From Paenibacillus sp. URB8-2 (GTDB lineage Bacteria; Bacillota; Bacilli; Paenibacillales; Paenibacillaceae), in the NCBI RefSeq assembly GCF_013393385.1, contig NZ_AP023239.1:1798001-1862000 (forward strand): a stretch of DNA of 64,000 bases. Direction: 5' to 3'. Position numbers and translations under genes: made by a program. This document shows positions 52,556-63,947 of the stretch, piece by piece; within the stretch, counting starts at the first letter, position 1; each line of letters starts with the position of its first letter. Under the pieces are notes generated by a model, which saw only the letters and a program-made list of their open reading frames with translations, did not search any database and had not been told where the DNA came from.

Positions 52556-52608
52556 AGAAGATGATGGATCGTCTGCATTTGTAAATACAACAAATTGCAA
52601 AATGAAAG

Positions 52609-52637
52609 TTGACAAATTAAGATTCAGAGGGTAATAT
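52609..52637 (+). promoter_or_regulatory. Sigma-A promoter of leader copy A
   Basis: TTGACA (52609-52614), exactly 17 bases, then TAATAT (52632-52637): a near-consensus sigma-A promoter. The sequence around it, including about 20 bases upstream of the -35, is repeated before the second AraC gene (62844-62872). It drives the sulfated-glycan operon unless the leader terminates first. Confidence 0.8.
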
Positions 52638-52643
52638 ACAAAA

Positions 52644-52752
52644 CATCATGATAACCGAGTAAACATATTGGAATTAAATAACCTGTCGCTTAATGTTGAC
52701 CGGAACTCCGGAGACGTCTTTCCATAAATCTATGGAAAACGTCTCTTTTTTT
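52644..52752 (+). ncRNA. Leader/attenuator RNA, copy A
   Basis: The expected transcript starts near 52644 and ends at a strong terminator, about 105-109 nt. Shared with copy B are blocks reading AACATCATGATAACC, AGTAAACATATTGGAAT and TGTTGACCGGAACTCCGG, so this is a conserved RNA and not just promoter DNA. CCGG-AACT-CCGG can form a small stem directly before the terminator. It could be an attenuator controlling the downstream importer and sulfatases, or an independent small RNA. I do not recognise it as a known riboswitch, T-box or LicT-type antiterminator site. Confidence 0.6.
52711..52752 (+). terminator. Intrinsic terminator in leader A
   Basis: GAGACGT (52711-52717) pairs with ACGTCTC (52739-52745), TTTCCATA pairs with TATGGAAA within it, and TTTTTTT (52746-52752) follows. 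The loop is AATC. It lies more than 100 bp before the importer genes, as an attenuator would. Confidence 0.9.
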
Positions 52753-52786: not shown

Positions 52787-52858
52787 ATGAACAGACCCAA
52801 CATTTTGATGATTACGACAGATCACCAGCTGAGAATGCGGTTGAATGAAAGGAGGTGA
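52787..52858 (+). pseudogene. Sulfatase N-terminal remnant (23 codons)
   Basis: A short frame with an excellent ribosome binding site (AAGGAGGAG) begins MNRPNILMITTDHQLR, which matches the first residues of sulfatases (compare MSRKPNILLITSDQQ at 56245). After residue 16 it departs from the family (MRLNERR) and stops at 52856-52858. The stop lies inside the ribosome binding site of the permease gene. I read it as the leftover start of a deleted sulfatase gene, now perhaps a translated leader peptide coupling into the permease gene. Confidence 0.7.
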
Positions 52859-52862
52859 GATG

Positions 52863-53822
52863 ATGGGAACAGTCACGAAAATGGAGCTTCCCAAAGAACG
52901 CTACGGCCTCCGTATGAACCACCGCACGCGCAAGCAGTTGTGGTGCTGGGCCTTTATCGCTCCGCAGCTGACGCTGCTGCTGCTGTTTACGGCCTATCCG
53001 ATCGTAATGAGTTATATTTATGCTTTTTTCGATTGGAACGGATATGGGTCACCTAAAGATTATGTGGGATTGGGCAATTTCGTTGAGACGCTGACAGACC
53101 CCATTTTCTGGAACGCATTTCGGAACAGCCTGTTATTTATGGTCAGCGTAGTTGTTATTCAGGTTCCGCTGGCGCTTCTGGCAGCGCTGCTGCTGAACGC
53201 GGGCTGGCTGAAAGGAAAGGTGCTCTACCGTACGATTTACTTCCTGCCGGTCGTGACCACGACAGCTGTCGTCGGCCTGGTCATGCGTTTCATATTCGGC
53301 GCGTACAAAGGAGTCGTAAATGAGGTGCTGATCAAGCTGGGTCTGCTGTCCGCACCGGTGGACTGGCTTGGCTCGATTGATACGGCGTTCATGGTTGTCG
53401 TTCTGGTCGGCATTTGGAAAAGCTTTGGCATGAAGCTCGTGTACTGGCTCGCCGGCATTCAATCGCTGCCCAAAGAGGTGATCGAATCGGCCAAAATCGA
53501 TGGGGCTTCAGCGTTTCAATTGCTGCGGCATATTACGGTTCCTTTAATCATGCCGGTGGGCAGCGTCATCCTGCTTATGTCTGCGGTGAACGCGCTGCAT
53601 GTCTTCGATTTGGTCAAGTCGATGACGGACGGGGGACCAGCCTTCAGAACGGATATGGTCGACGTGTACATTTACCGTTATGCCTTTTCGGGGAACGGCG
53701 AGGCGCGCGTCGGATTTGCATCAGCCGCAGGGGTACTGTACGGCCTTGTTGTAATGCTTATCTCGCTCGCGTTTGGGCTGCTGGTCAAATGGACCGGCGG
53801 CAGGAGCAAGACCAGGTTGTAA
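52863..53822 (+). CDS. ABC sugar permease, first subunit (sulfated-glycan importer)
   Basis: ATG 52863 (MGTVTKMELPKERYGLRM) has AAAGGAGG upstream; ATG 52860 and 52845 are in frame but too close to or within the ribosome binding site. The 319 residues have six membrane helices (WAFIAPQLTLLLLFTAYPIV first) and an EAA-type loop VIESAKIDGASAFQLLRHIT. It is the first gene of the operon controlled by leader A, whose order is permease, permease, binding protein, unlike the other three importers of the window where the binding protein comes first. Confidence 0.87.
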   Translation: MGTVTKMELPKERYGLRMNHRTRKQLWCWAFIAPQLTLLLLFTAYPIVMSYIYAFFDWNGYGSPKDYVGLGNFVETLTDPIFWNAFRNSLLFMVSVVVIQVPLALLAALLLNAGWLKGKVLYRTIYFLPVVTTTAVVGLVMRFIFGAYKGVVNEVLIKLGLLSAPVDWLGSIDTAFMVVVLVGIWKSFGMKLVYWLAGIQSLPKEVIESAKIDGASAFQLLRHITVPLIMPVGSVILLMSAVNALHVFDLVKSMTDGGPAFRTDMVDVYIYRYAFSGNGEARVGFASAAGVLYGLVVMLISLAFGLLVKWTGGRSKTRL

Positions 53823-53835
53823 GGAGGCGGCAGAA

Positions 53836-54678
53836 ATGAGTTTCGGCAAAAAAAGAAAGTCCGCAGGGATTACGGTTGTTCATATTTTGCTGATCACGCT
53901 CGGCATCGTCTGGATTTATCCGTTTATCTGGATGATCATGTCTTCGTTTAAAACAAACAGCGAATATATCGTTTCCGGGATAAACCTGCTCCCTGAGAAA
54001 TTCCAATTTGAAAACTATGCAAGAGCGTGGAAAACGGCGCAATTTTCCGTCTATTTCTGGAATACCGTCACCATCACGGTTTCGGTCGTGGCAATAGTTC
54101 TGGCCGTCTGCTCTCTCACGGGGTACGCCATCGGGCGCTATCGTTTCACAGGACGAATCGCATTAATATCCGTTATTACTGCGTTGATGTTCATGCCCAA
54201 AGGCTACACGATCATTCCTGTCTATACGCTCGTGAATAAGCTTGGGCTGAACAACTCGCTGCTTGGAGTAATCCTGGCGGAAGTTGGAGGGGCTCACACG
54301 CTGTTCATTCTACTGTTTGCGGCATATTTCAGGGGCCTTCCGAAGGAGTTGTCGGAGTCGGCGGAGGTGGACGGCAGCGGGTTTGTCCGGACTTTCGTGC
54401 AAATTATGCTTCCCCTGTCCAAACCGATCCTCGCGACGACGGCGATTATGCAGTTCATGTGGACGTGGAACGCGTTTCTCATGCCGCTCATCTTCACGCT
54501 TAACAAACCGGAGCTGCGCACGCTTGGTGTCGGAATGTATCAATTCGTCGGCGAGAATACGATGGATTGGACCGGGATGGCGGCAGCGGCCAGCATCTCG
54601 CTGGTGCCAATTCTGGCGGTATTTATTGTGCTGCAGAGATATTTCATTGAAGGTGTATCCGGAGCAATCAAAGGATAG
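53836..54678 (+). CDS. ABC sugar permease, second subunit (sulfated-glycan importer)
   Basis: ATG 53836 (MSFGKKRKSAGITVVHILLI) follows AAGGAGG. The 280-residue MalG-type subunit has six helices and the coupling loop LSESAEVDGSGFVRTFVQIM, and ends ...EGVSGAIKG. It starts 13 bp after the upstream stop. No ATPase lies in this operon. Confidence 0.88.
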   Translation: MSFGKKRKSAGITVVHILLITLGIVWIYPFIWMIMSSFKTNSEYIVSGINLLPEKFQFENYARAWKTAQFSVYFWNTVTITVSVVAIVLAVCSLTGYAIGRYRFTGRIALISVITALMFMPKGYTIIPVYTLVNKLGLNNSLLGVILAEVGGAHTLFILLFAAYFRGLPKELSESAEVDGSGFVRTFVQIMLPLSKPILATTAIMQFMWTWNAFLMPLIFTLNKPELRTLGVGMYQFVGENTMDWTGMAAAASISLVPILAVFIVLQRYFIEGVSGAIKG

Positions 54679-54703
54679 GCCGATTATACTTGGAGGTTTT
54701 GAG

Positions 54704-56218
54704 ATGAGAAGATCAATATTTCGCATGGCTATTCTGGCCTTAACAACGGCGGCGCTGCTCGCAGGCTGCTCAGGCAAAACGTCTTCGGGGGCAAATAACG
54801 CCACCCAAGACCAGCCCCAAGAAACGGTTGTCACTTTATGGGGGGCAAGCGACTTTCTGAAGGGCCCGAAAAGTCCGGGACAGCAAATGATTGCAGAGTT
54901 CAATGAGACAAACAAAGGAAAGATCAAGGTAGAAGCCCGGTATATGCCTTGGGCAGAGTACAATACGGCCATTCAAGCGGCAGCCACATCCAACAGCTTG
55001 CCGGATATATTCCAAACGCCGCAAAACACGGATATTCGCACCCTGGTCGCCAACGGATGGGCGGGGCCTTTTGACGGATTGGTATCCGAAGCTTGGAAGA
55101 AGCAGTTTACAGCGGGCGCTTTTGTAGAAGGCGTGAATGTAATCGAAGGCAAAACGTACAGTTGGCCGCTAACCGGCCCGCAGCTGGGTTCCATTCTGTA
55201 TTACAACAAGGATGTGCTCAAAAATGCGGGACTTGATCCCGAATCCCCGCCTAAGACGTGGGATGAGCTGCGCACGATGGCCAAAACGGTAACGGCCAGT
55301 GGTAAAGGCGACGTATTCGGCATCGTGTTCGGGGGCGGAGAAACAGGCGCAGCTTCGGGCGCAGCCAAAATAGTCGACGCTCTGGCCGCGGGAATATCTC
55401 CGCAAGCTGTAGGCGGCTTTAATTACAGCACCGGAAAATACGATTATGAATCGAAGGCGACGATAGATTCGTTCAATTTCCTAAACGGGCTTAAGACAGA
55501 CGGCAGCATTCTGCCTTCCTCTTACACGATGAAGGCGACGGAAGCGAGCGCACTGTTCGGGGAAGGGAAAGCGGCATTCCTGATCGATGGCCGGGCGCGG
55601 ATGTGGATTGTGAAGCGTGATACACCGAAAGCTAATTTCGGATTGGCGCAGGTGCCGACTCCAAGCGGACAGAAACCGGTTTATTACTACGTTGCAGCCG
55701 ATCCGTCGGGATTTATGATTTCAGCGAAATCGCAGCATGCCAAGGAGGCCGGGGAATTTATCGAGAAAGCCTTTGCGGCGCCTTTATTTTATGAAAAATA
55801 TTTGAAGAGCGGCGTGGCGCTTAGTCCGATTGCGAGCATCAACAACAACCAATCGCTGTACCCTTATCCGGAATTCAATACGTTTATTCAGCTACATAAA
55901 GATTTGTTGAAGCTAAGACCGGATTATGCAATCCGCAATCCGCAGACGGCAAAGGTGATCGTGGAGCTGGGCTCCTTGCAGCAGCCAAAAGTCAAGCCGG
56001 GCTACAGCGATATTTTGCAATCGGTGCTGACGGGTGCGGAGAAGGATTTGCAGCCGCTGCTAAAGGATTATGATGAAAAATTGAACAAGGGGCTGGACGA
56101 CGCGGTGGACAAAGTGAAGGCATCAGGCGTGCAGGTGAGCCGGGAGGACTTTAGCTTCCCTAATTGGCAGCCGGATCAAGATTACACCCCGGATGATTAT
56201 CAGCAGTTGAAAAAATAA
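54704..56218 (+). CDS. ABC sugar-binding lipoprotein (sulfated-glycan importer)
   Basis: ATG 54704 (MRRSIFRMAILALTTAALLA) follows TTGGAGG; the same frame is open far upstream inside the permease gene, which is not coding for this protein. The 504 residues have a lipobox LLAGC, then a solute-binding fold (VVTLWGASDFLKGPKSPGQQ, LPDIFQTPQNTDIRTLVANG, KTYSWPLTGPQLGSILYYNK, GEGKAAFLIDGRARMW). It is longer than the other binding proteins of the window (429-461) by an extended C-terminal part. The sulfatases and the GH27-like enzyme that follow suggest a sulfated, galactose-containing oligosaccharide as ligand. Confidence 0.85.
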   Translation: MRRSIFRMAILALTTAALLAGCSGKTSSGANNATQDQPQETVVTLWGASDFLKGPKSPGQQMIAEFNETNKGKIKVEARYMPWAEYNTAIQAAATSNSLPDIFQTPQNTDIRTLVANGWAGPFDGLVSEAWKKQFTAGAFVEGVNVIEGKTYSWPLTGPQLGSILYYNKDVLKNAGLDPESPPKTWDELRTMAKTVTASGKGDVFGIVFGGGETGAASGAAKIVDALAAGISPQAVGGFNYSTGKYDYESKATIDSFNFLNGLKTDGSILPSSYTMKATEASALFGEGKAAFLIDGRARMWIVKRDTPKANFGLAQVPTPSGQKPVYYYVAADPSGFMISAKSQHAKEAGEFIEKAFAAPLFYEKYLKSGVALSPIASINNNQSLYPYPEFNTFIQLHKDLLKLRPDYAIRNPQTAKVIVELGSLQQPKVKPGYSDILQSVLTGAEKDLQPLLKDYDEKLNKGLDDAVDKVKASGVQVSREDFSFPNWQPDQDYTPDDYQQLKK

Positions 56219-56244
56219 ACACAAGAAATGGAGATGCGCAAATT

Positions 56245-57756
56245 GTGAGCCGCAAGCCCAATATTCTGCTTATTACGAGTGATCAACAGCACTGGAACAC
56301 GATAGGAGCATTCAATCCCGAAATTTCAACGCCCAATCTGGACCGATTGGCCGAAGAGGGAACGGTGTTTACCCGGACGTACTGTCCGAACCCGACCTGC
56401 ACGCCGACGCGAAGCTCTCTAATTACCGGGCAGTACCCGAGCCAGCACGGGGCATGGACCCTCGGAACCAAGCTTTCCGAGAACGCGCATACGGTTGGCG
56501 AGGATTTCCTTGAGGCGGGCTATGAAACCGCGCTGGTCGGGAAGGCGCATTTCCAGCCTCTCGCATCGACGGAGCAATATCCGTCCATTGAAGCGTATCC
56601 GATTTTGCAGGATCTGGAGTATTGGAGACAGTTCGATGAGACGTACTACGGATTCCGGCATGTCGAGCTCGCGCGGAATCATGTGAACGAAGCCCATGCC
56701 GGGCAGCATTATGCCATTTGGCTCGAAGAGAAAGGCTGCACCAACTGGCGCGATTACTTTGTGCCGCCGACCGGCACCATGGACGTAGAGCATAAGCACA
56801 ACTGGCCGATTCCGGAGGAATATCATTACGACGCCTGGATCGCCGAGCGTACGAATGCCCTGCTTGAGCAGTACCGGCAGGAGGAGAAGCCGTTCTTCCT
56901 CTGGGCGAGCTTCTTCGATCCGCATCCGCCGTATCTGGCGCCGGCGCCCTGGGATACGCTGTACGATCCGGAGAAGCTTACGCTTCCGGCGATTCAGGCA
57001 GGAGAGCATGAGGCGAATCCGCCTCATTTCCGGTTGACTCAGGAGGAGAAGCCGAACTTCTCCGCTTACAAGGAATCAGGTTTCGGGGTTCACGGCTTTC
57101 ATTCCCACCGGCATGAGGGAGAGGAGCTGCGCAAGGATATCGCCGTTTATTACGGGATGATCAGCCTGATGGATAAATACATCGGGACTATCCTTGATAA
57201 ACTGGACGAGCTCGGTTTGGCGGAAGATACGCTGGTCGTGTTCACCTCCGATCACGGGCATTTATTCGGACAGCACGGTCTAATCGCCAAGGGCGCGTTT
57301 CATTATGAAGATTTGCTGCGGGTGCCGATGATCGTCCGTTATCCGGGGCGGGTGCCTGCCGGGAAGGTGTCCGGCTCCCTGCAATCGCTCGTCGATTATG
57401 CGCCCACGCTGCTAAGCTTGGCGGGACTTCCGATTCCGTCATCGATGACGGGAGTGGATCAAAGCGAGGTATGGAATGGGACAAGAGAGTCAGTAAGGGA
57501 TCATATCTTGTGCGAGAACCATCACGAACCGACAACCGTTCATTTGAAATCGTACGTGAATGAACGTTACAAGCTTACCGTCTACTACAATCATACATAC
57601 GGCGAGCTGTTTGACCTAAAGGACGATCCGCAGGAGTTGAGGAACCTGTGGGACGATCCGGCGTATGCGGCCCTGAAAGCCGAGCTGCTTCTCCGGTATG
57701 CCTGGGCCGAGCTCGGTAAAGAGCCGATACCGATGCCGAGAATAGCGGGAGCATAA
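56245..57756 (+). CDS. Type I sulfatase 1
   Basis: GTG 56245 (MSRKPNILLITSDQQHWNTI) is the start. The 503-residue protein has the formylglycine motif C-T-P-T-R (Cys52 in PTCTPTRSSLITGQYPSQHG), metal residues in ITSDQQ and in VVFTSDHGHLFGQHGL, and the second sulfatase signature region GYETALVGKAHF. There is no signal peptide, so it acts in the cytoplasm on imported sugar sulfates. The Cys-type motif needs maturation by an anaerobic sulfatase-maturating enzyme or FGE, not encoded in this window. Which sulfate ester it cuts is unknown. Confidence 0.9.
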   Translation: MSRKPNILLITSDQQHWNTIGAFNPEISTPNLDRLAEEGTVFTRTYCPNPTCTPTRSSLITGQYPSQHGAWTLGTKLSENAHTVGEDFLEAGYETALVGKAHFQPLASTEQYPSIEAYPILQDLEYWRQFDETYYGFRHVELARNHVNEAHAGQHYAIWLEEKGCTNWRDYFVPPTGTMDVEHKHNWPIPEEYHYDAWIAERTNALLEQYRQEEKPFFLWASFFDPHPPYLAPAPWDTLYDPEKLTLPAIQAGEHEANPPHFRLTQEEKPNFSAYKESGFGVHGFHSHRHEGEELRKDIAVYYGMISLMDKYIGTILDKLDELGLAEDTLVVFTSDHGHLFGQHGLIAKGAFHYEDLLRVPMIVRYPGRVPAGKVSGSLQSLVDYAPTLLSLAGLPIPSSMTGVDQSEVWNGTRESVRDHILCENHHEPTTVHLKSYVNERYKLTVYYNHTYGELFDLKDDPQELRNLWDDPAYAALKAELLLRYAWAELGKEPIPMPRIAGA

Positions 57757-57764
57757 GGGGTGAA

Positions 57765-59135
57765 ATGATGAATGTTAACCATACGGAAGAGACACCGGGA
57801 GAGAACACGCTGCTGCGGTTGACACCCCGTCCTCCCCTGGGCTGGAACAGCTTTGATTGCTACGGCTGCGCCGCGCCCGAGGACGCGCTGCTGGAGAATG
57901 CCGAGGCCATGGCCAGGCTTTTGAAACCAGGGGGCTATGAGTATTTTGTGGTAGATAACGGTTGGTTTGCCGAGTATGAGATTCCCGCGGGCAAACGGTA
58001 TCCGGCTGTAAAGCATGCGGATGATGTCAATCTCGACGCGTACGGGAGACTTCAGCCGTCGAAATGTTATTTCCCCCATGGAATCAAAGGGCTGATCGAC
58101 CGCGTTCACGGCCTGGGCCTGAAATTCGGCATTCATATCATGCGGGGCATTCCGCGCAAAGCGGTCGCTAATGACCTTCCCGTTCTCGGCACGCCTTACC
58201 GGGCTTCCGACATCGCGGAGATTAGCGATACTTGCGAGTGGTGCCATTACAATTACGGAGTGAACATGGATCATCCGGGAGCTCAGGCTTTCTATGATTC
58301 GTTCATTCAAATGTTGGCCAAGTGGGAAGTCGATTTCATCAAAGCCGATGACATCACCGGGCACCCCCGGGAAATCGAAGCGATCGTCAAGGCGATCCGC
58401 TCCTCGGGAAGGGACATTGTTCTCAGCTTATCTCCCGGAGGGCAGACAACGCCGGAATTTATGGATGTCTACCAGCAGGCCAATATGCTGCGGACTACTC
58501 GGGACATATGGGATAACCGGGACGACCTGGATAAAGCTTTTGACGTCTGGCATGCGTACAGCGAGTTTCGCAAAGAGGGCTTTTGGCTCGATCTCGACAT
58601 GATTCCGTTCGGGCATCTGCAGCTGTGGAATCCAAGAACCGAAGCGAAGGCGTATGCAGAAACCCGGACCAGCCAAGAGCTGAGCGGCAAAGGGCATGAG
58701 CGAATGAGCGGACTGTCCGTGAATCAGAAATACACCTTTATTACAATCAGGGCGCTGGCGGCGTCCCCGCTGTTTATGGGCGGCGACCTGCCAAGCTCGG
58801 ACGAGTTCTCCATTGATTTGATAACGAATGAAGGCATGCTCGAGTGCAACCAAAACGGGATCTCGGGGTCCAGAGTCTATGCCGAAAGTGGAATCGAGGT
58901 TTGGAAAACCCCTCACCGTACGGCCGCGGGCGAAGGCTGGATCGGTGTTTTTAACCGGAATAGGGAGACCAAGCGGGTACAGTTAACATTCGGACAGCTT
59001 TCCCTAGACGATTCGGTTCCGGCTGAGCTTCAATCGATTTGGCCCGAACCCGCATATGAACATTTCGAAGGCGGCCTGACCTCGGAAATTGAAGGTGATG
59101 GTGTGTTGTTTCTTCATTATAAAAGCAGGAGCTGA
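57765..59135 (+). CDS. GH27-like alpha-galactosidase (melibiase-type)
   Basis: ATG 57765 or 57768 follows GGGGTGAA. The 456 residues begin with the melibiase motif PRPPLGWNSFDCYGC, then EYFVVDNGWF, LKFGIHIMRGIPRKAV, the nucleophile Asp195 in DFIKADD, and an acid/base region near DIWDNRDDLDKAFDVW. The C-terminal ~90 residues are a beta-sandwich (GWIGVFNRNRETKRVQLTF). The fold is clear; specificity is not, because many relatives act on other alpha-linked sugars. Lying between sulfatases, it may remove alpha-galactose (or a related sugar) once sulfate groups are gone. No signal peptide. Confidence 0.82.
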   Translation: MMNVNHTEETPGENTLLRLTPRPPLGWNSFDCYGCAAPEDALLENAEAMARLLKPGGYEYFVVDNGWFAEYEIPAGKRYPAVKHADDVNLDAYGRLQPSKCYFPHGIKGLIDRVHGLGLKFGIHIMRGIPRKAVANDLPVLGTPYRASDIAEISDTCEWCHYNYGVNMDHPGAQAFYDSFIQMLAKWEVDFIKADDITGHPREIEAIVKAIRSSGRDIVLSLSPGGQTTPEFMDVYQQANMLRTTRDIWDNRDDLDKAFDVWHAYSEFRKEGFWLDLDMIPFGHLQLWNPRTEAKAYAETRTSQELSGKGHERMSGLSVNQKYTFITIRALAASPLFMGGDLPSSDEFSIDLITNEGMLECNQNGISGSRVYAESGIEVWKTPHRTAAGEGWIGVFNRNRETKRVQLTFGQLSLDDSVPAELQSIWPEPAYEHFEGGLTSEIEGDGVLFLHYKSRS

Positions 59136-59140
59136 TTCTT

Positions 59141-60490
59141 ATGGCAAAAAGATCGTCACAGCCGAACGTCATCGTTTTTTTCACCGACCAGCAGCGCTGG
59201 GATACGACCGGGGTTCACGGAAATCCGCTTGGTCTAACGCCAAATTTTGACCGGATGGCCACTCGCGGAACGCATTTATATCATTCGTTTACGTGCCAGC
59301 CGGTATGCGGCCCGGCACGTTCGGTGTTCCAGTCGGGCTTATATCCGACGACAACCGGGTGCTACCGCAACAAAATTCCGCTCCCCGAGGACACCCGGAC
59401 GCTTGCGCATTATTTCCGCGAAGCGGGCTACAAGACCGGATATATCGGCAAATGGCATCTTGCCGATGAGAATCCGGTGACGGAGCCGAAACGTGGCGGC
59501 TATGAGTATTGGCTGGCGGCCAACGCCTTGGAAATGACGTCCGACGCCTATGATGCGGTTGTCTTCAATAACGACAACGAACGGGTGAAACTGCCCGGCT
59601 ACCGTGTCGACGCCCTGACGGATGCGGCGATCCGTTTCATCGATGAGGAGCAGGATCGTCCGTTCTTTCTGTTCCTGTCTTTCCTGGAGCCGCATCATCA
59701 AAATCACCGGGATGACTATCCATCACCTGATGTGTATCAGGAATCCTACACCGGAAGGTGGACGCCGCCGGATTTGGCTGCGCTCGGCGGGACTGCCGCA
59801 CAGCATTTGGGCGGTTATTATGGAATGGTGAAGCGGCTCGACGAAGCGCTCGGCAGGGTGTTTGACACGGTTAAAAGCCTGGGGCTTGAGGATGACACCA
59901 TCATTTTGTTCACCTCTGATCACGCCTGTCATTTCAAAACCCGTAACAGCGAGTATAAACGTTCATGCCATGAAAGCTCGATTCGTGTGCCGACCGCGGT
60001 GATTGGTCCGGGCTTCGACAGCCGGGGGCAAATCCGCGAGCTTGTCAGTCTGATTGATCTTCCGTCCACATTGCTGGATGCGGCGGGTATTCCTGTCCCC
60101 GATTCGATGCAGGGGCGGTCCATACTGCCTTTGCTGCGCCGGGAAACCGCCGACTGGCCGGACGATGTCTATGTTCAGATCAGCGAAGCGCAGGTCGGAC
60201 GTGCAATCCGGACGTCACGTTGGAAATACTCCGTTTCTTCACCGGATTCGGTGCTTGATGCTGCGTCCTCCGATACGTATATTGAGGAATACTTGTACGA
60301 CCTTCAGGCGGACCCGTATGAGCTGACTAATCTCATTGGCTCCGAATCGCATCAGCGTGTCGCTTCCGCTCTAAGGGAACGGCTGCTTCGGCGGATGGTT
60401 CAAGCGGGTGAACCTCCGGCGCATATTGTAACGGCGGAGAGCAAGCCAAGCGGGCAGCGGCGGGTATCGGAAGCCGAAATTCATTCGTAG
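59141..60490 (+). CDS. Type I sulfatase 2
   Basis: ATG 59141 starts five bases after the previous stop. The 449-residue enzyme has PNVIVFFTDQQRWDTTGVHG, the formylglycine motif C-G-P-A-R (Cys56 in PVCGPARSVFQSG), GYKTGYIGKWHLA and IILFTSDHACHFKTR. In the last motif the usual DHG is DHA, a small departure in the metal-binding loop. It is cytoplasmic by lack of a signal peptide. It differs strongly from sulfatases 1 and 3, which suggests that each removes a different sulfate group. Confidence 0.88.
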   Translation: MAKRSSQPNVIVFFTDQQRWDTTGVHGNPLGLTPNFDRMATRGTHLYHSFTCQPVCGPARSVFQSGLYPTTTGCYRNKIPLPEDTRTLAHYFREAGYKTGYIGKWHLADENPVTEPKRGGYEYWLAANALEMTSDAYDAVVFNNDNERVKLPGYRVDALTDAAIRFIDEEQDRPFFLFLSFLEPHHQNHRDDYPSPDVYQESYTGRWTPPDLAALGGTAAQHLGGYYGMVKRLDEALGRVFDTVKSLGLEDDTIILFTSDHACHFKTRNSEYKRSCHESSIRVPTAVIGPGFDSRGQIRELVSLIDLPSTLLDAAGIPVPDSMQGRSILPLLRRETADWPDDVYVQISEAQVGRAIRTSRWKYSVSSPDSVLDAASSDTYIEEYLYDLQADPYELTNLIGSESHQRVASALRERLLRRMVQAGEPPAHIVTAESKPSGQRRVSEAEIHS

Positions 60491-60507
60491 GCAAAAGGAG
60501 CGGAAGC

Positions 60508-61866
60508 ATGAACAATTCAATCCTTCTTATTTCAGATGAACATAACCCGTTTTACTCTTCCGTGTACGGACATCCGGTTATTCATACGCCGAATATGGAG
60601 CGGCTGGCGGATAGAGGTACGGTTTACGAGAGCGCGTATTGCCCATCGCCCCTCTGCAGCCCGAGCCGCAGCGCCTTCTTCTCAGGCAAAAGGGTACATG
60701 AGTTACAGAACTATAGTAATTGTAATCTCGGCGTACCCGCAGGCGCTCCCGCTTACGGCGATGTGCTAAGGCAGCAGGGCGTATACAGCGCCTACTTCGG
60801 CAAAACGGATGTGTACGACCGGGGAGATCGGCTGGGTTTCTCGGAAATTCATTACAGCAAGGACCGTAATCAGCCGGGGGATGTGAATTTCCGGCGGCGG
60901 CCGCTCTCGATTCGAGAAGGTGCGGCTGAACGGGCGAGCGGCTTCGGAGTGCGAGAGAACGCTTTTGACGATGATCTGAAGGTGATGGATGCGGCATTGC
61001 GCTGGTTGAAGGAAGTAGCGCCTTCCATTCCTGAGCCATGGAGCCTTACGATCAATTTGCTGAACCCGCATTTCCCGCAGTGGAACACACAAGCCTATTG
61101 GGATCTGTACCCGGAGGCTGCTGACCTTCCCCTTTACGGAAAGGAAGAGGAAAGGGCCAACCATCCCTATGCGAGAGATTTGCGTAATCATTTCGAGGCG
61201 GATTTATTTACGGAAGAGCAAATACGCGGACTCAGACGGGGATATGCCGGAAACGTAGCTTTTGTGGATGATCAGCTTGGCCGGCTCCTTGATACGGTAG
61301 AAGACGGCGGTCTCACGAACACTACCCAAATCGTTTACACATCGGATCATGGAGAAATGCTGGGCAAGTTCGGCATGTGGTGGAAATGCTCGTTGTACGA
61401 GGATTCGGTTCGGATTCCTTGTATAGCGGCAGGACCCGGTTATGAGAAAGGCCGCCGGGTACAAACGCCTGTGGATTTGCATGATGTGCAGGCGTCTTTG
61501 TTTCACGCTGCCGGCGTAAAGCGGCCGGAGAGCTGGGTAGGGGAGCCTCTGCAAACGATAGCCGAGTATAATGAGGAACGTGTCGTATTCTCTGAATACC
61601 ATGGTCATGGCACCCGTTCGGGCGCCTATATGATTCGTAAAGGGGATTGGAAGCTCATTTTCTATACAGAGGCACCGCATCAATTGTTCGATTTGAGCGC
61701 TGACCCGGACGAACGGCATAATGTATATGCTAACCATCCGGAAAAGGCTGAGGAGCTGGAAGCTGAACTGCGGCGCATTTGCTCACCGGAGGCTGAGGAC
61801 GATAAGGCGCACGGATTTCAAGCGAAACAGTTGGAGCTGCTGGCGGTCATGAACGGAAAGAGTTAG
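60508..61866 (+). CDS. Type I sulfatase 3
   Basis: ATG 60508 follows AAAGGAGCGG. The 452-residue protein has SILLISDEHNPFYSSVYGHP, the formylglycine motif C-S-P-S-R (Cys50 in PLCSPSRSAFFSGKRVHE), YSAYFGKTDVYDRGDRLGF and IVYTSDHGEMLGKFGMWWKC. The start SDEHNP in place of TDQQ and the DVYDRG segment place it in a subgroup related to choline-sulfatase and phosphonate-hydrolase-like sulfatases. It is cytoplasmic and shares the need for formylglycine maturation. Confidence 0.88.
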   Translation: MNNSILLISDEHNPFYSSVYGHPVIHTPNMERLADRGTVYESAYCPSPLCSPSRSAFFSGKRVHELQNYSNCNLGVPAGAPAYGDVLRQQGVYSAYFGKTDVYDRGDRLGFSEIHYSKDRNQPGDVNFRRRPLSIREGAAERASGFGVRENAFDDDLKVMDAALRWLKEVAPSIPEPWSLTINLLNPHFPQWNTQAYWDLYPEAADLPLYGKEEERANHPYARDLRNHFEADLFTEEQIRGLRRGYAGNVAFVDDQLGRLLDTVEDGGLTNTTQIVYTSDHGEMLGKFGMWWKCSLYEDSVRIPCIAAGPGYEKGRRVQTPVDLHDVQASLFHAAGVKRPESWVGEPLQTIAEYNEERVVFSEYHGHGTRSGAYMIRKGDWKLIFYTEAPHQLFDLSADPDERHNVYANHPEKAEELEAELRRICSPEAEDDKAHGFQAKQLELLAVMNGKS

Positions 61867-61890: not shown

Positions 61891-62742
61891 ATGAAAGAAT
61901 ACGGACACGAGTTTGCCGAATACCTGTACCACACACCGTCTGAATATGAAAAGAACGGGGGATTGTGGGTCATTCGGACGGGAAAAAATAAAGCGAAACC
62001 TAACTACCAGGTCGGACCCAAAGTGATTGAGTGTTACTCCGTGCATGCCGTAATCAAGGGGTGTGTTGCATTTACACATGGGGATGAGACCGTTTATTTA
62101 CGAAAAGGCGCGCTCTTTTGTCTGTACCCCGGCCTCCGTTACAGCTACCGGCTTGGTGAGGATGAGGAGAACCTGCGCATGTATTGGCTGGCTTTTCAAG
62201 GGAATCAGGCGGAGCCTTTGCTTGAACGTATCGGGTTCAGCAGGGAGAAGCCCTATGTGACCGAACGCTGGATGCCGGAACATGAGCAGGCAATGACTCA
62301 CATTCAAGATTTGGTCAGAGATCATGCTGGTTATGACGAAATACTGCTGCAGTCGAAACTTTATCAGCTGTTTGAATCGTTATCCCGCAAGGCGGGTGAG
62401 CGTGTGTTTCATCACGGGACTACCGATTGGCTGGAAAAATGCATTCAATATATGGACACCCATTACATGGAAGGTGTTACGGTAACCGATGTCGTCGAGG
62501 TTGCGGGTGTACACCGCTCTCATGTTTATCAGGAGTGCAGCAATGTGCTTGGCCTCAGCCCGATGCAATATTTAATCCGACTGCGGATGAAGAAAAGTGC
62601 CGAATTGCTGAAAGACCGCGGACTGAATATAACGGATATTGCGTTATCCGTCGGCTATCCGGATTTATATTCTTTTTCCCGCGCATTCAGCAAGTATTAT
62701 GGGATGTCGCCCACGCAATATCAAAAGAGGTCGACAAATTGA
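61891..62742 (+). CDS. AraC-family regulator 1 of the sulfated-glycan locus
   Basis: ATG 61891 follows GGGGGATTT. The 283 residues comprise a cupin-like sensor (NYQVGPKVIECYSVHAVIKG, YLRKGALFCLYPGLRYSY) and an AraC helix-turn-helix pair (VTVTDVVEVAGVHRSHVYQE and LNITDIALSVGYPDLYSFSR). It is the last gene of the sulfatase operon. The next gene but one (63060) is a close paralogue, most positions being identical along the whole length, so the two arose by tandem duplication. It probably activates the importer operon in response to an imported sugar. Confidence 0.87.
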   Translation: MKEYGHEFAEYLYHTPSEYEKNGGLWVIRTGKNKAKPNYQVGPKVIECYSVHAVIKGCVAFTHGDETVYLRKGALFCLYPGLRYSYRLGEDEENLRMYWLAFQGNQAEPLLERIGFSREKPYVTERWMPEHEQAMTHIQDLVRDHAGYDEILLQSKLYQLFESLSRKAGERVFHHGTTDWLEKCIQYMDTHYMEGVTVTDVVEVAGVHRSHVYQECSNVLGLSPMQYLIRLRMKKSAELLKDRGLNITDIALSVGYPDLYSFSRAFSKYYGMSPTQYQKRSTN

Positions 62743-62843
62743 TATCCTGTCGCTCTGCCGGAAACTTGCAAATTTCCACTCCAAAGAGATTTTAAAAGAG
62801 GCGCAGCGGGGAAACACTAGCTCAACAAAATGCGAAATGAACG

Positions 62844-62872
62844 TTGACAAATCAGGATTCAGGGGGTAACAT
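62844..62872 (+). promoter_or_regulatory. Sigma-A promoter of leader copy B
   Basis: TTGACA (62844-62849), exactly 17 bases, then TAACAT (62867-62872). Spacer and flanks match copy A at 52609 closely. It drives the second AraC gene. Confidence 0.75.
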
Positions 62873-62878
62873 TCAAAA

Positions 62879-62988
62879 CATCATGATAACCTAGTAAACA
62901 TATTGGAATATTTTACGGAAATCAGTTGTATGTTGACCGGAACTCCGGAGACGTTTTTCCATGTATCCATGGATAACGCCTCTTTTTT
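62879..62988 (+). ncRNA. Leader/attenuator RNA, copy B
   Basis: This is the second copy of the conserved leader of about 105-110 nt. It shares AACATCATGATAACC, AGTAAACATATTGGAAT and TGTTGACCGGAACTCCGG with copy A, while the segment between the last two blocks differs. It lies between the two AraC paralogues and 72 bp upstream of the second one. The conservation of transcribed blocks in two locations argues that the RNA itself, or a protein bound to it, has a function. Confidence 0.6.
62948..62988 (+). terminator. Intrinsic terminator in leader B
   Basis: GAGACGTT pairs with AACGCCTC (one A-C mismatch), and TCCATG pairs with CATGGA, followed by TTTTTT (62983-62988). Compared with leader A the pair closing the loop changed from A-T to G-C on both sides, a compensatory change that supports selection for the hairpin. 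Confidence 0.85.
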
Positions 62989-63059: not shown

Positions 63060-63947
63060 ATGAAAAATTACGGAAACGAATATGCCGAATTTCTATACCA
63101 TACACCTTCCGAATATGAAAAAAACGGAGGACTGTGGATCATCCGGACCGGCAAGAATGAAGCAAAGCCTAACTACCAGGTCGGGCCTAAAGTGATTGAA
63201 TGTTACTCGGTGCATGCCGTCATCAGCGGCTGCGTGGCGTTCACGCACGGAAATGAAACCGTATATTTGCAAAAAGGCGCTCTCTTCTGCCTGTATCCCG
63301 GGCTCCGGTACAGCTACCAGATTGCTGAAGCCGAGGATAACCTGCGCATGTACTGGCTGGCTGTTCAAGGAAATCAGGCTGAGATATTGATTGAACGGAT
63401 CGGATTCAGCCGGGAGAAGCCTTATGTAACCAACCGCTGGACGCCGGATCATGAGCAGGTGATCAACCGGATTCAAAGCATGGTCAGGGATAAGAAAAAT
63501 TATGACGAAGTGCTGCTGCAGTCGAGGCTGTATCAGCTGTTCGAATCTTTATCGCATAAGGCGGGCGCCCGCGTCGTGCATCACGGGACCGAACATTGGC
63601 TGGAGAGATGTATTCAATACATGGATACCCACTACATGGAAGGGATCACGGTGACCGATGTCGTGGATGTGGCGGGAGTGCACCGCTCCTATGTGTATCA
63701 GGAGTGCATCAGCCTGCTTGGACTGAGCCCGATGCGGTATCTGATCAAGCTCCGGATGAAGAGAAGCGCCGAGCTGCTGCAAAATCAAGGGCTTGCGATT
63801 ACAGACATCGCCTTGTCCGTCGGATACCCGGATTTATTCTCGTTCTCCCGGGCGTTTAGCAAATATTACGGGAAGTCGCCGACCCAATACCAGAGGGGAT
63901 TCGTTGGCAGCACATCGACAAAACGCCATATTTCATCTACAAAATGA
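63060..63947 (+). CDS. AraC-family regulator 2 of the sulfated-glycan locus
   Basis: ATG 63060 (MKNYGNEYAEFLYHTPSEYE) follows GGGAGGGCCC; the frame is open upstream through the leader but lacks a start signal. The 295-residue protein has the same cupin plus double helix-turn-helix build as regulator 1 (ITVTDVVDVAGVHRSYVYQE, LAITDIALSVGYPDLFSFSR) and is very similar along its length, except for an extra 13-residue tail rich in Ser and Thr. It has its own promoter and attenuator (leader B), so its dose can change separately from that of regulator 1. Confidence 0.87.
   Translation: MKNYGNEYAEFLYHTPSEYEKNGGLWIIRTGKNEAKPNYQVGPKVIECYSVHAVISGCVAFTHGNETVYLQKGALFCLYPGLRYSYQIAEAEDNLRMYWLAVQGNQAEILIERIGFSREKPYVTNRWTPDHEQVINRIQSMVRDKKNYDEVLLQSRLYQLFESLSHKAGARVVHHGTEHWLERCIQYMDTHYMEGITVTDVVDVAGVHRSYVYQECISLLGLSPMRYLIKLRMKRSAELLQNQGLAITDIALSVGYPDLFSFSRAFSKYYGKSPTQYQRGFVGSTSTKRHISSTK

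Follow-up and report, generated by a model that had tools for sequence, protein, structure and literature searches.

The RAT sites of BglG, LicT and SacY are small hairpins with an internal loop that overlap the 5′ arm of an intrinsic terminator, and one such module can serve several operons. ANTAR targets consist of two hairpins with six-nucleotide loops; here too, a hairpin next to a terminator mediates protein-dependent antitermination. Accounts of sulfur-gene control in Gram-positive bacteria usually invoke CymR, SAM riboswitches and T-boxes. We analyzed a 64,000-nt stretch of the Paenibacillus sp. URB8-2 genome, referred to as the window, which contains two similar leaders. Judged from their sequences, these leaders appear to belong to a large, apparently uncatalogued RNA-switch family of Paenibacillus and other Gram-positive bacteria.

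The two leaders, copy A (52589–52752) and copy B (62823–62988), lie on the forward strand. A first-pass annotation had described them as a duplicated leader RNA, and they indeed aligned as homologues over this stretch. In a blastn search of the whole 5.58-Mb genome with copy A, copy B matched with 81% identity (E 1.1e-41), while the other nine matches at E ≤ 10 spanned 15–38 nt with E ≥ 0.13. Both copies carry the near-consensus promoter ascribed to them, TTGACA-17-TAAyAT. In copy A, TTGACA (52609–52614) and TAATAT (52632–52637) are separated by 17 nt, a layout that recurred in the relatives read; in copy B, the same spacing separates TTGACA (62844–62849) from TAACAT (62867–62872). According to sequence and folding energies, intrinsic terminators occupy 52710–52752 (T-run 52746–52752) and 62947–62988 (T-run 62983–62988). 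Their loop-closing pair is A-T in copy A and G-C in copy B, as claimed. Conservation had also been said to extend through the whole expected transcript; this holds for two transcribed blocks and the terminator, but not for the 15–20 nt between the blocks (∼52677–52691). Two features had been overlooked: a hairpin, H1, that immediately precedes the terminator and overlaps it, and more diverged members of the family within the same genome.

Neither copy matched a riboswitch or T-box, in agreement with the first-pass annotation. A scan with 4227 Rfam families, including SAM-I and T-box, yielded no match in the window at gathering scores. At E ≤ 10, there was none at the hairpins of copies A and B, with two chance snoRNA matches downstream of copy A and none for copy B. 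Copy A was also without a match in plasmid and phage collections. Two other candidate features were discarded. The first, which emerged when copy B and its G272 relative were folded, is a long-range stem pairing the 5′ end with AUGUUGA; it lies partly upstream of the expected transcription start and is not kept in other members. The second, a leader ORF of four codons in copy A (ATGATAACCGAG-stop), lacks an evident Shine-Dalgarno sequence and is absent from the more distant members read.

H1 spans ∼21 nt and comprises an outer stem of 2–5 bp, an internal loop with NA on the left and A on the right, an inner stem of 4 bp and a small loop, usually of 4–5 nt and mostly A-initial, whose letters vary. 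In copy A it reads GUU-GA-CCGG-AACU-CCGG-A-GAC (52695–52715), and the same sequence occupies 62932–62952 of copy B; both assignments draw on covariation and folding energies. The inner stems include CCGG/CCGG, CCAG/CTGG, CTGG/CCAG, CCAT/ATGG, CCGT/ACGG, TCGG/CCGA, CTAG/CTAG, TCAG/CTGA and TTGG/TCAA, and the outer stems GUU/GAC, GCC/GGC, GCU/GGC, GAGCC/GGCUC and GAUU/AAUC. In an alignment of 90 members from 84 sources (A10), all eight tested H1 pairs showed two-sided changes. Double-change cells numbered 53 as compared to 19.3 ± 3.7 in shuffles (0/500). The paired cells amounted to 88.1% versus 31–52% when the register was slid; the inner stem was in the model behind A10, so its pair counts lean towards pairing, whereas the outer stem was not. 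The outermost tested pair was weak (28 of 71 cells paired). Further homologues with covariation, whose absence would have refuted the first-pass annotation by its own terms, thus exist. In three leaders that precede LplB-type importers (L048, L050 and L051; about 1501–1720), a second H1-like hairpin stands in tandem with the first, with no E1 element between them; L048 apparently contains a third. In three others (L130, L137 and L144), two divergent H1 leaders lie back to back in one intergenic region.

The second conserved element, E1, follows the −10 box and has the form AGTAA-N4-ATnGGAATTA. It is conserved in alignment A10 and corresponds to AGTAA-N4-ATTGGAATTA at 52658–52676 in copy A and, by sequence, to AGTAA-N4-ATTGGAATA at 62893–62910 in copy B. 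At cysK and other sulfur genes, E1 is positioned downstream of the promoter. It also occurs without H1, both in L068, L075 and L090 and before cysK in other genomes, and is therefore a separate module. E1 is probably the DNA operator of a CymR-like sulfur repressor. The obvious candidate is CymR itself, since its targets in B. subtilis include cysK and ssu according to the accessible part of PMC3828012; On the basis of these shared targets, E1 is a candidate CymR box.

To define the range of the family, we combined blastn, pattern and covariance-model searches. With copy B as the blastn query, 2 of 100 genomes of the genus matched, namely the source genome and G054. In G054, the gene behind the leader encodes a protein with radical-SAM, SPASM and SEC-C domains (PF04055, PF13186, PF02810), of the anaerobic sulfatase-maturase type. 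Six of 394 genomes of the family matched by blastn; besides the two above, G316 and G272 were real, while the matches in G188 (L017) and G340 (L018) lacked promoter, E1 and H1 and were dismissed as chance. G316 has two such leaders: one is followed by an FGE gene (PF03781), the other by an importer/sulfatase operon, the first gene of which shares 72% identity with that of the window operon. The exact E1 + H1 pattern returned 56 matches in genome_contigs, a collection of 84,980 species; every record matched bore Paenibacillus or Paenibacillaceae in its title. A covariance model, R1, built from six sequences and covering the −35 box to the hairpin, matched in 221 of the 394 family genomes (E ≤ 0.1). 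The matches read had the same layout and mostly preceded sulfur genes; because R1, like the model R2, scores promoter and E1 besides H1, the genome counts include genomes with E1 only (e.g., G381, G669, G715 and G766).

Subject to the same reading, R2 matched in 64 of 299 evenly drawn genomes of the class (E ≤ 1e-3), 26 from the source family and 38 from 14 other families. H1 was present in each of the 19 best matches read, which represent 19 of these 38 genomes. At a laxer threshold (E ≤ 0.1), 24 of 40 genomes negative in the strict search matched; in the 30 loci read, H1 was found in 11 genomes and E1 alone in others, four times directly before cysK. From the strict and laxer searches together, H1 was read in 13 families of Bacilli besides the source family. 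In a sample of the phylum, 11 of 169 genomes matched. Seven of these were from outside the class, four with H1 and three with E1 only; the non-Bacilli H1 sites included ones before an ATP-sulfurylase-like gene and CysP. In the source genome, R2 yielded 21 matches at E ≤ 1, and 15 of the 20 loci inspected had a canonical H1, as compared to 2.4 expected by chance from shuffles that keep single-base composition only. SAM-I matched twice in this genome versus these 15 loci.

We then considered how H1 relates to the terminator. Reducing 128 members at 80% identity left 77 non-redundant leaders, 74 of them with H1. In 56 of these 74, a hairpin with a T-run starts in the region of the H1 3′ strand, L077, L091 and L065 being doubtful cases. 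The terminator hairpin begins at offset 0–5 of the H1 3′ strand in 55 of the 56; these offsets are bounded by design, as a 5′ arm was sought only within the first 12 nt of that strand. Seven of the remaining 18 leaders (L021b, L027, L029, L032, L039, L076 and L084) showed, by eye, the same pairing with a poorer T-run. In copy A, the terminator 5′ arm shares GGAGAC with H1, and bases are likewise shared in copy B. For copy A, the calculated energies were −8.7 kcal/mol for the extended H1 and −19.6 kcal/mol for the terminator; H1 plus the leftover hairpin reached about −16.6 kcal/mol versus −21.8 kcal/mol for the terminator state, the best fold. In copy B, the two states were nearly equal (−16.9 versus −17.0 kcal/mol). 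Since the H1 3′ strand is part of the terminator 5′ arm in most members, the two structures are mutually exclusive, and the shared bases make H1 an antiterminator by anatomy. These data, together with the many covarying homologues, support the earlier suggestion of an attenuator that senses something.

About 11 of the 74 leaders had no recognizable terminator, at least eight of them before CysP genes. In L093, L096, L125 and comparable leaders of CysP genes, H1 stands 70–95 nt before the start codon with no recognizable terminator. In these ∼11 leaders, H1 must act otherwise or with other signals. They also bear on the notion that the terminator is passive or constitutive, that sulfur control operates only through E1 at the promoter and that H1 is a mere terminator part. 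E1 does stand alone before several sulfur genes, and promoter control can suffice there. Yet a passive terminator explains neither H1 without a terminator, nor the conserved internal loop and outer-stem covariation, nor the recurrence of H1 in distant families with changed letters. We regard this explanation as highly improbable.

We give equally little credence to the possibility that the predicted ∼105-nt transcripts act in trans as small RNAs and are encoded upstream of sulfur genes by chance. The first-pass annotation had offered a small-RNA family as an option, and the leaders' own promoter, strong terminator and long identical stretches common to copies A and B would suit one. This option is disfavored: across families, the promoter, E1 and H1 alone persist while leader length and middle vary freely, the position before same-sense genes recurs, and the conserved part is a hairpin that competes with the terminator.

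The genes behind the leaders indicate what is being controlled. Most leaders precede sulfur genes, including those for CysP, SsuABCD, CysK, MetK, MetN, FGE, anSME and sulfatases. Among the first downstream genes of 101 of 103 leaders (L089 and L161 were left out, and the second ORF was used for L029), 17 matched the sulfate-binding family TIGR00971 and 13 the SsuA family; others encode luciferase-type monooxygenases (5), LysR regulators (4), FGE (3), DUF2292 proteins (3) and permeases. Targets in the source genome include cysK with a nitrogenase-like gene, metK, ssu-type genes, metY, metN/metI and an SsuD-like gene, as well as a gene for a carbohydrate-type binding protein, TctA-like genes and unassigned genes; its cysT and cysP loci have a non-canonical hairpin only. 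Not evidently related to sulfur are the LplB-type importers (L048, L050, L051, L073, L074, L083 and L092), a carbohydrate-type binding protein (L150), an ECF operon (L026) and the TctA-like and unassigned genes (L337 and L339). The glycans named as candidate signals by the first-pass annotation do not fit, as the target genes point to sulfur supply instead.

Several loci merit separate mention. In the source genome, an H1 leader precedes cysK and a nitrogenase-component-like gene (PF00148; L151, 1791–3100), and three further H1 leaders (L338, L347 and L358) precede, by eye, NifH- or nitrogenase-like genes. These genes are perhaps sulfur-salvaging relatives of nitrogenase. In G272, the leader is followed by an ECF-transporter operon that, by eye, includes an S component and hydrolase-like genes (L020, 3617–8016); the substrate of this transporter may be a sulfur compound. 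A T-box detected at 2727–2985 of L030 in an Rfam scan of 15 relative loci is a separate element, located farther on in the strand region that carries a sulfate-importer locus.

In the window, copy A precedes a forward-strand operon (52845–61866) in which ORF and Pfam analyses identified ABC importer genes, three sulfatase genes (56245, 59141 and 60508) and an alpha-galactosidase-like gene (57765). Right behind terminator A, on the same strand, lies a 23-codon ORF, MNRPNILMITTDHQLRMRLNERR (52787–52858), whose stop codon overlaps the Shine-Dalgarno region of the importer gene that follows. Its start (MNRPNILMITTDHQ) resembles a sulfatase N-terminus by eye; on this likeness, the ORF could be a sulfatase remnant or a leader peptide. 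Copy B precedes the second of two adjacent genes for AraC-type regulators (61891–62742 and 63060–63947, the latter on the forward strand and identified from ORFs and Pfam). The two genes are 81% identical, and only the second is preceded by a leader.

Overall, these data make it likely that the leaders act in cis as attenuators within a large sulfur regulon in which H1 is a sulfur-limitation antiterminator, probably bound by a protein. When sulfur is plentiful, a CymR-like repressor on E1 would block initiation, and any transcripts still initiated would by default stop at the terminator. When sulfur runs short, a trans-acting factor, most probably a protein that binds RNA, would stabilize H1, removing the 5′ arm from the terminator and allowing transcription to continue. 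H1 would work like the RAT sites of LicT and BglG, with a different RNA and a putative factor. Against this reading stand the leaders that have H1 but no recognizable terminator, the near-equal energies of the two states in copy B and the targets with no evident tie to sulfur. In the window, the sulfatase/importer operon and one AraC regulator would fall under sulfur control.

The nature of the factor is less certain. H1, alone or with the upstream leader, could recognize a sulfur metabolite directly, as a very small riboswitch that needs no protein: the internal loop and the loop nucleotides, both conserved, could provide a pocket for a ligand, and sulfur genes are classic riboswitch targets. 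We consider this unlikely. H1 has only ∼21 nt with 7–9 base pairs, its loop letters vary, it is found by itself in tandem leaders, and it was not matched by the Rfam riboswitches. Its small size, its solitary occurrence in tandem leaders and its kept internal loop are more in keeping with a binding site for a protein than with an aptamer for a metabolite. In its full form, the protein-based model holds that H1 is the site of an RNA-binding antiterminator protein that senses sulfur, and that the leaders constitute a second, RNA-level global sulfur regulon across Bacillota, laid over CymR-type DNA control and outnumbering SAM riboswitches here; to this we assign about an even chance.

We evaluated DUF2292/YezD as a candidate partner of H1. 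DUF2292 was present in 60 of 64 model-positive class genomes versus 60 of 235 model-negative ones. The control gene, CysP, performed about as well (56/64 versus 45/235). Within CysP-positive genomes, the DUF2292 association was weak (p 0.012); within CysP-negative genomes, DUF2292 occurred in 8 of 8 model-positive versus 27 of 190 model-negative genomes. H1 was also present in G418, G587 and G573, where the YezD seen was exclusively of the Q subtype. A role of DUF2292/YezD as H1 partner is thus not specifically supported. Among 118 sequences, 99 of which could be parsed, we distinguished two subtypes, VHD.. with a basic tail and VQDG.. without it. The predicted alpha-beta-beta fold of the protein matched no solved structure (best E 1.9).

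The H1 family precedes much of the sulfur-scavenging gene set of the Paenibacillaceae and has relatives elsewhere in the phylum. It predicts a sulfur-responsive factor that acts on RNA and names the hairpin to be bound. The H1 leader can also serve as a marker for new sulfur genes, such as those for nitrogenase-like enzymes and sulfatase loci. In the open-licence PMC literature searched, to the extent that its text was accessible, the family is undescribed except for one sentence in PMC2965389 (2010) that mentions a terminator-associated element common to a sulfonate ABC operon and a gene of unknown function in bacilli, both of which it precedes. This element may be an early glimpse of the H1 family; unlike the present description, the accessible text gives no structure, family or regulon. 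The accessible parts of PMC3519770, PMC9239247, PMC9338935, PMC5670726, PMC11109978, PMC2940859, PMC3828012 and PMC3766115 contain no description of the H1/E1 element.

Compared with the CymR regulon, the H1 leaders share targets such as cysK and ssu, which carry E1 here too (PMC3828012, accessible part); CymR exerts control at the DNA level, whereas H1 is an added RNA-level element. Like SAM-I (S-box) and T-box leaders, they are attenuators of sulfur and amino-acid genes in Bacillota, but they are far smaller, and the two copies have no Rfam match. With ANTAR targets they share a hairpin next to a terminator and, as proposed for H1, protein-dependent antitermination; H1 differs in being a single hairpin with a loop of mostly four to five nucleotides. 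In design, H1 resembles the RAT sites in that it competes with the terminator 5′ arm, as seen in 56 of 74 non-redundant leaders and in the energies of the two copies. H1 departs from them in sequence (by eye), internal loop and size, in preceding sulfur rather than sugar genes, and in usually having E1 ahead of it. The logic of a leader hairpin that competes with a terminator is known; the hairpin family and its proposed sulfur regulon are absent from Rfam 15 and, apart from the possible glimpse in PMC2965389, from the open-licence literature searched.
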